Below, in pieces: positions 24,801-26,062 of a stretch of DNA of 64,000 nt. The number at the start of each line of letters is the position of its first letter. The first letter of the stretch is position 1. The DNA comes from Vulcanisaeta thermophila (lineage in GTDB: Archaea; Thermoproteota; Thermoprotei; Thermoproteales; Thermocladiaceae). Where the stretch lies: the NCBI RefSeq assembly GCF_001748385.1, contig NZ_BCLI01000001.1, positions 1 to 64,000 on the forward strand. The letters are read 5' to 3'. The position numbers and the translations under genes were made by a program. Below the pieces are notes generated by a model that did not search any database, was not told where the DNA came from, and worked only from the letters and a program-made list of their open reading frames with translations.

Positions 24801-24971
24801 ATGATAACCCGCGTTGGGGTTTACGTAACCTCTGAATACTTATTACTATGGCCCAGGGTGATTGTTAGGGTTAGGGATCACGTGTTCACCGTGGTTAATT
24901 ACGTAACCCCAAGACTACCCATCACCCTGAGTAGGCCCAGGCATTCGATGCTAAGTACCATGGCTGGTTAA
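24801..24971 (+). CDS. Possible small protein (56 residues)
   Basis: Short frame starting ATG at 24801 with a TATA-like GTTATAAATT about 30 nt upstream. The peptide has alternating hydrophobic residues (YLLLWPRVIVRVRDHVFTVVNYVTP) that suggest a small beta protein. It overlaps the end of the convergent NAD-kinase-like gene by 21 nt. No family recognised. It may be noise. Confidence 0.35.
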   Translation: MITRVGVYVTSEYLLLWPRVIVRVRDHVFTVVNYVTPRLPITLSRPRHSMLSTMAG

Positions 24972-25949
24972 TTTACCCGAGAGTGAGTAAACAATAACGG
25001 GCTTGTTACCCCTCAAAATGGTCTGCTTCGTCACCAAGCCCTTACGCATGAGAAGGTTCAGTGCGTACCTAATGGTCCTGCCCGGGAGCATGGTCTTCTC
25101 GGAAATCTCCCTCTGGGTTAACTGTCCCTCGTACTCAAGCACCTTCATTATAAACTTGGCACTGGGTGGTAGGTCCATGTTAGCGATTAGGTTAATCTTC
25201 CTCTCATACCTACCAATGGTGCTTGATGCGCCGTTGAACCTAACGAGCCTCAGGGCATTACCCCTCATTATCCTCACCTCATCACCAGCATAGGCCCTAA
25301 CACTACCATCAATAATAACCTCAACCCTGGACCTGGAGACCAAGTCCTTAATAACCACTGTACACTCATCGGGAATCACTATGGGCACCCTGGCCAGGTT
25401 GGTGCTATTCACAGGAACCACCTCGAAAACCCTGGCCTTGGCATGTATCAGGGGACCCCCTGCGGACATGGCGTATGCCGTGGAGCCCGTGGGTGTGGAC
25501 ACTATGATGCCATCAGCCACATCATGCCATATGTACTCATCATCAATGTAGAGGTTATACTCAAGGGTTGTGGCGCTCTTTGAGGGGAATATGGCCACCT
25601 CATTTATTGCGTGTGGTAATGACTTACCCTTAATCACGGCCATTAGCCTGGTTATCTCCTCAACCTCATAATCACCGCCCTTAATGGCATCAATGGCGCC
25701 CCTGAGGTTTGGTAGGTCCACTGAATTCAGGAACCCAGTGCCAAGTCCTATTGTGAGTATGGGCTTATCCACATCATTGAGCTTATGCAGGCTCGTTATT
25801 ATGAACTTATCAGTGCCCGCAATGCCGATTACATCGTAATCCTGCACCTTGACCCCACCAACATCAGTCACAACATCAGCAACTCCAGAACCTAGCTCCC
25901 TCTTTAGCGAATCCGCAATGCTCGGCATTGAGATGATGAGTAACCTCAT
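24951..25949 (-). CDS. NAD-kinase-fold protein fused to a C-terminal helix-turn-helix
   Basis: 332 residues. Residues about 1-260 follow the NAD kinase fold: a core strand ending at AGTD (44-47), LTIGLGTGFL (about 65-74), AINEVAIF with the Asn-Glu pair (116-117), STPTGSTAYAMSAGGP (151-166) and a beta-sandwich half with IDGS. The family's GGDGT loop, which holds the catalytic aspartate, reads AGTDK here, so the Asp is displaced by one position. Residues about 265-330 form a winged HTH (ISEKTMLPGRTIRYALNLLMRKG). It may be a divergent NAD kinase with autoregulation, or a nucleotide-sensing transcription factor that has lost activity. TATA box 26 nt upstream supports the start. Confidence 0.75.
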   Translation of the reverse strand: MRLLIISMPSIADSLKRELGSGVADVVTDVGGVKVQDYDVIGIAGTDKFIITSLHKLNDVDKPILTIGLGTGFLNSVDLPNLRGAIDAIKGGDYEVEEITRLMAVIKGKSLPHAINEVAIFPSKSATTLEYNLYIDDEYIWHDVADGIIVSTPTGSTAYAMSAGGPLIHAKARVFEVVPVNSTNLARVPIVIPDECTVVIKDLVSRSRVEVIIDGSVRAYAGDEVRIMRGNALRLVRFNGASSTIGRYERKINLIANMDLPPSAKFIMKVLEYEGQLTQREISEKTMLPGRTIRYALNLLMRKGLVTKQTILRGNKPVIVYSLSGKLTSHGT

Positions 25950-26062
25950 TTATGTAATGAACCATGGGTATCTTATTAAATTTTTGCTAGGGGTACAACG
26001 TAAAGTGGTAATTAATGATCAGAGTTAGGCATTTAATACGTGGATAATACGTAATAAGTGCC

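Follow-up and report, generated by a model that had tools for sequence, protein, structure and literature searches.

What becomes of an NAD kinase whose phosphate-donor loop has been altered and whose C-terminus carries a DNA-binding domain is the question raised by a single gene of Vulcanisaeta thermophila. The gene lies in the 64,000-nucleotide stretch of DNA analysed here (the window), where an initial annotation had recognized, at positions 24951-25949, an NAD-kinase fold with the NE and TPTGSTAY motifs and a winged helix-turn-helix (HTH) over the C-terminal 65 residues, and had proposed a dinucleotide-sensing transcription factor or, alternatively, a kinase regulating its own gene. A single open reading frame of 332 residues does occupy these positions, on the minus strand as can now be added, and it encodes both motifs (N116-E117 and T152-Y159) and the HTH. 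The features of the locus are as follows:

24951..25949, minus strand: NAD-kinase-like/winged-HTH gene encoding P0001, read from 25949 to 24951, 332 amino acids (open reading frame; orthologs)
25230..25844, minus strand: putative sensor domain of NAD-kinase fold, residues 36-240 (Pfam, phmmer, hhalign, AlphaFold/Foldseek)
25803..25817, minus strand: altered loop GTDKF, residues 45-49, aligned on GGDGT, with Asp47 kept and Gly2 and Gly4 lost (phmmer and alignment)
25599..25604, minus strand: NE motif, N116-E117 (alignment of family and canonical kinases)
25473..25523, minus strand: conserved region II, residues 143-159, with D143 (family-specific), D146-G147 and TPTGSTAY (alignment)
25404..25415, minus strand: PVNS, residues 179-182, in place of the canonical P-x-P-[HF] loop (alignment)
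24981..25175, minus strand: C-terminal winged HTH, residues 259-323 (Pfam HTH_24 at 267-307, AlphaFold)
25973..25980, minus strand: TATA-like box TTTAATAA, 24-31 nt upstream of the ATG (promoter sequence)

Domain Architecture of the Fused Protein

Pfam searches placed NAD_kinase_C (PF20143) at residues 116-230 (E=1.6e-27, 96 bits) and HTH_24 at residues 267-307 (E=4e-5), both above their cut-offs, the winged HTH as a whole taking up about the last 65-75 residues; in the same searches, a Nudix domain was absent, as were NMN-adenylyltransferase and ribosylnicotinamide kinase domains. The curated NCBIfam cut-offs for NAD kinases are missed, the best score being 137 bits where 326 are required. 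Solved NAD kinases match residues 38-231 by phmmer, and when the AlphaFold model (mean pLDDT 88.6) was submitted to Foldseek, the top PDB matches were all NAD kinases (E about 3e-23 to 1e-18). Given its distance from the ATG, the TATA-like box would suit a leaderless transcript.

Similar winged HTHs were also observed on other proteins. A (2R)-phospho-3-sulfolactate synthase (ComA) carries one at its C-terminus (L102:2331-3305, plus strand; L103:3941-4915, minus strand), a further case, within this archaeal class, of an enzyme fused to an HTH, and a protein encoded near a thioredoxin-reductase-like gene (L354:1629-2501, minus strand) carries one at its N-terminus, fused to a domain that matches nothing in Pfam.

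The Donor Loop and Its Register

The initial annotation had read the loop as AGTDK, with the catalytic aspartate moved by one position. The letters are correct, at residues 44-48, but the displacement was a register error, AGTDK having been matched to GGDGT one residue out. G45-T46-D47-K48-F49 aligned without gaps on GGDGT by phmmer against solved kinases, by hhalign of the family against canonical kinases, and in a 180-sequence alignment, where the Asp47 column is invariant in 86/86 members of the fused family and 92/92 canonical kinases; in the AlphaFold model, a strand spans residues 40-45 and a helix starts directly at residue 47. The loop is thus superposed normally on the catalytic Asp, and the loop argument of that annotation fails.

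By this alignment, the actual change in the window protein is the replacement of Gly2 by Thr and of Gly4 by Lys, giving GTDK in place of the GGDG motif. Both glycines are invariant in the 92 canonical kinases. Among the 86 family members, Gly4 is replaced in 83 (by Arg in 52, Lys in 23, Ser in seven and Cys in one) and kept in three, with Lys or Arg present at this position in 75; Gly2 is replaced in 61 and kept in 25. Three further features, D143, N181-S182 and R187, are specific to the family, N181-S182 being found in 85/86 members; the canonical Pro-His/Phe that follows position 181 is lost. The C-terminal winged HTH is present in 86/86 members and in none of the 92 canonical kinases, and 24 columns are invariant across 29 divergent orthologs of the fused protein.

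Mutagenesis of Ppnk from Mycobacterium tuberculosis identified Asp-85, Asn-159, Glu-160, Thr-200 and Tyr-202 as vital (PMC8553519); the corresponding Asp47, Asn116, Glu117, Thr157 and Tyr159 are all present in the fused protein. With the catalytic Asp and most of the residues needed for activity kept, the protein may have some kinase activity. Its pocket for NAD(P) (Asp47, Asn116, Glu117, Asp146 and TPTGSTAY) is retained and the glycines of the phosphate-donor loop are gone; with both glycines replaced, loss of kinase activity is plausible.

A Canonical NAD Kinase in the Same Genome

The second, canonical NAD kinase for which the initial annotation had suggested a search was found in the window genome (G000:C4). 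This 266-residue protein (P0002) has an intact GGDGT loop and no HTH, and its presence rules out the fused protein as the sole NAD kinase of the organism. A second match to PF20143 was likewise found in nearly all of the fused-protein genomes checked, the exception being G065 (91% complete); in G006 (67% complete), there is one NAD_kinase_C match only. Two complete genomes (G028 and G075) keep the canonical kinase and lack the fused protein. Nine genomes (G048, G049, G057, G112, G208, G252, G264, G324 and G389) encode a third NAD_kinase_C protein, with an open frame of about 353-424 residues in several of them.

Two further matches to the NAD_kinase domain, at 564-568 kb of C1 in the window genome, are without PF20143 and were set aside as AcoX-like. 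Both proteins (G000:C1:564387-567729; L002, L003 and L054) show a weak N-terminal match to NAD_kinase, and their genes adjoin pyruvate/acetoin-dehydrogenase-like E1 genes.

Distribution and Ancestry of the Family

The nearest named records of the fused protein are from Vulcanisaeta (64-69% identity), and orthologs extend across the order, the class and the phylum: among the 398 Thermoproteota genomes sampled, the family was detected in 150, of which 15 belong to ammonia oxidisers as confirmed by AmoA. Given this conservation, the altered loop is neither chance nor a sequencing error. The gene is split into several frames in Vulcanisaeta drafts (L166, L168, L022 and L023); since it is intact in the complete genomes of the genus, these breaks are probably sequencing errors. 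The copy in G012 carries four stops.

The family is monophyletic (FastTree support of 0.992), the sole mismatch being a fragment from one Vulcanisaeta draft. Sister to all other members is L169, from a metagenome-assembled genome labelled Diapherotrites, in which the HTH is the same, the GGDGT loop is intact and the gene has nadC beside it, and which is the only NAD_kinase_C match of its assembly. As this basal protein combines the HTH with the intact loop, its position in the tree suggests that fusion preceded loop loss, and L169 would be an apparent surviving intermediate between kinase and sensor.

Linkage to Genes of NAD Synthesis

When open reading frames around 80 family genes were clustered, nadA (PF02445), nadC (QRPTase) and nadX (aspartate dehydrogenase) emerged as adjacent genes in six GTDB families (f3, f8, f14, f16, f20 and f55). 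The orientation is mostly divergent, and co-directional in two genomes (L117 and L118) that are presumed to be Pyrobaculum-like. In the window genome, the fused gene is away from the nad genes and a nadA-nadB-nadC operon lies elsewhere; in ammonia oxidisers (L135-L164), the fused gene is preceded not by nad genes but by a PfkB-family kinase gene, and often by one for a CDP-alcohol phosphatidyltransferase.

The complete genome G028 lacks the fused protein as well as nadA. It does contain a scar (L104:4067-4942, minus strand), an open reading frame that opens with the ~90 N-terminal residues of the fused protein and continues as NadX, apparently as if a single deletion had taken most of the regulator plus nadA and nadC. 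The fused protein also occurs without nadA (in G018, G040, G042, G252, G112, G186, G131, G300 and others), and in those genomes it would therefore act on other targets, perhaps salvage genes.

A Candidate Operator Upstream of nadA

The palindrome GGCAA-N3-TTGCC is common to the intergenic regions of loci at which the fused gene and nad genes diverge (L087, L130, L132 and L163), the window locus not being one of these. Allowing at most one mismatch within 250 bp upstream of nadA, it was found in 26/35 nadA promoters where the genome encodes the fused protein and in 0/23 where it does not (Fisher 3e-9, a value that overstates independence because ammonia oxidisers have mutually related nadA promoters). 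Ten genomes, nine of ammonia oxidisers and one (G002) of the same family as the window genome, carry an exact copy about 90-125 bp upstream of nadA; in three genomes of that family without the fused protein (G007, G008 and G011), the nadA promoters are 3-4 mismatches from the palindrome. The site of the window genome, GGCAAATTATGCC (L337:10070-10082), precedes the start of nadA in the nadA-nadB-nadC operon by 84 bp, and variants of the form GGCA-N5-TGCC stand equally far from nadA in other Vulcanisaeta. No clear palindrome was found upstream of the operon in which the fused gene is joined to nadA in L117 and L118.

Whole-genome scans returned between zero and eight exact sites per genome. In L089 and L133, where the fused gene is unlinked to nadA, its own promoter contains the palindrome, and the single exact match in the G050 genome is also at that position. 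The remaining exact matches inspected fall mostly within open reading frames, the few others being at L272, L339, L347 and L350. In Vulcanisaeta, the palindrome is absent from the fused gene's own promoter and autoregulation through it was rejected. The alternative of a kinase that regulates genes may apply to L169, with its GGDGT loop and sole NAD_kinase_C match.

Archaeal repressors more often cover the TATA box or the start site. In several groups, the palindrome lies upstream of the TATA box of nadA, and in ammonia oxidisers upstream of the TATA-like CTTTAAAT; with the site so placed, activation at low cofactor supply is no less possible than repression.

Proposed Function and Its Alternatives

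The fused protein is probably a dedicated transcription regulator that controls NAD synthesis de novo, in which a retired NAD kinase would serve as the sensor and the winged HTH would act on the palindrome of nadA, the first gene of the pathway. The transcription factor proposed by the initial annotation is thus well supported, on the comparative evidence of the second canonical kinase, the nadA, nadC and nadX neighbours, and an operator found only with the fused protein; the basis given for it, a shifted aspartate, was wrong. NAD kinases depend on dimerisation for their NAD site (PMC8553519). In the proposed mechanism, the kinase fold would dimerise and the two C-terminal winged HTHs would bind GGCAA-N3-TTGCC upstream of nadA; on taking up NAD(H) or NADP(H), the dimer would alter the spacing of its paired HTHs, and hence DNA binding, such that quinolinate synthesis would be matched to cofactor supply. 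The Lys or Arg at loop position 4 may contact the 2'-phosphate of NADP, a placement that would favour NADP(H) as the ligand, although this choice is a first guess. Comparative evidence for the operator at nadA is strong; DNA binding itself, the ligand, the sign of control and the loss of kinase activity are what we infer from sequence.

A working NAD kinase, perhaps with polyphosphate as donor or NADH as substrate, could instead also bind DNA at nadA in a manner comparable to NadR, a repressor that retains enzyme activity. The retention of every residue that matches one vital in Ppnk (PMC8553519) is consistent with such a bifunctional protein. So is the basal L169, whose GGDGT-bearing protein is the only one of its kind in the assembly, but the same donor-loop glycines that never vary in canonical kinases have been replaced in most of the family, Gly4 almost throughout, and nearly all carriers possess a separate canonical kinase. 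We take Gly82 of the related sphingosine kinase to be equivalent in position to the NAD-kinase loop glycine. The analogous Gly to Asp substitution in that enzyme (G82D) renders it catalytically inactive (PMC7599897), and a bifunctional role for the window protein is on balance unlikely.

Ownership of the palindrome by another regulator, with the fused protein a co-inherited enzyme or acting as a regulator elsewhere, would account for the genomes that have the fused protein without nadA and for nadA-linked ones without a clear site. It is very improbable given that the site is missing from all 23 nadA promoters of genomes lacking the fused protein, those of G007, G008 and G011 in the same family included, and that the only exact match in G050 sits in the fused gene's own promoter. 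That the gene is a decaying, functionless duplicate is hardly credible: the lost loop glycines and the four stops in G012 would fit decay, but most carriers are intact, the invariant columns and the HTH have been maintained across the family, and the breaks in Vulcanisaeta drafts are absent from complete genomes of the genus. For the preferred reading of a regulator, a broader history may be drawn, to which we give an even chance: an NAD(P)-responsive regulator spanning the phylum would have arisen first as a bifunctional HTH fusion, still seen in L169, and then become a pure NADP(H) sensor through the Lys or Arg replacement in the donor loop.

Relation to Known Regulators and Significance

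NadR of the Enterobacteriaceae is an NAD-liganded repressor with an N-terminal HTH and NMN adenylyltransferase and ribosylnicotinamide kinase domains (PMC6800001). Like NadR, the fused protein would be a regulator of NAD synthesis assembled from a domain of NAD metabolism and an HTH, cofactor sensing being proposed here; unlike the bacterial protein, it is archaeal, its enzyme domain is an NAD kinase and its winged HTH is C-terminal. At least one NrtR (Nudix-related transcriptional regulator) has lost its hydrolase activity. The combination of an enzyme-derived sensor with a winged HTH, and at related loci divergence from nad genes with a palindrome between, are shared with NrtR, but the Nudix sensor of NrtR is absent from the fused protein. 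In mycobacteria, nrtR and nadABC are divergent and the region between them contains a palindrome (PMC6800001), the operator being GTTTTCGA-N7-TCGAAAAC. With NiaR and other winged-HTH repressors of NAD genes, the fused protein would share control of NAD biosynthesis; NiaR differs in being bacterial and in its sensor domain, which responds to nicotinic acid. The resemblance to NAD kinase (NadK/PpnK) comprises the fold, the NE/D motif, conserved region II and the catalytic Asp, and the differences are the loss of GGDG, P-V-N-S in place of P-x-P-[HF], the fused winged HTH and the canonical kinase encoded alongside.

To our knowledge, no regulator of NAD synthesis has been described in archaea, and no description of one was found in the open-licence full-text literature. 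If the proposal is correct, the fused protein would join NadR and NrtR as a third design in which control of NAD derives from an enzyme, and the production of NADP should not be assumed for genes annotated as "NAD kinase" in these genomes. The family would also provide a case of an essential kinase turning into a sensor with an apparent intermediate surviving, and its regulatory role would span both hyperthermophilic crenarchaea and the abundant ammonia-oxidising archaea.
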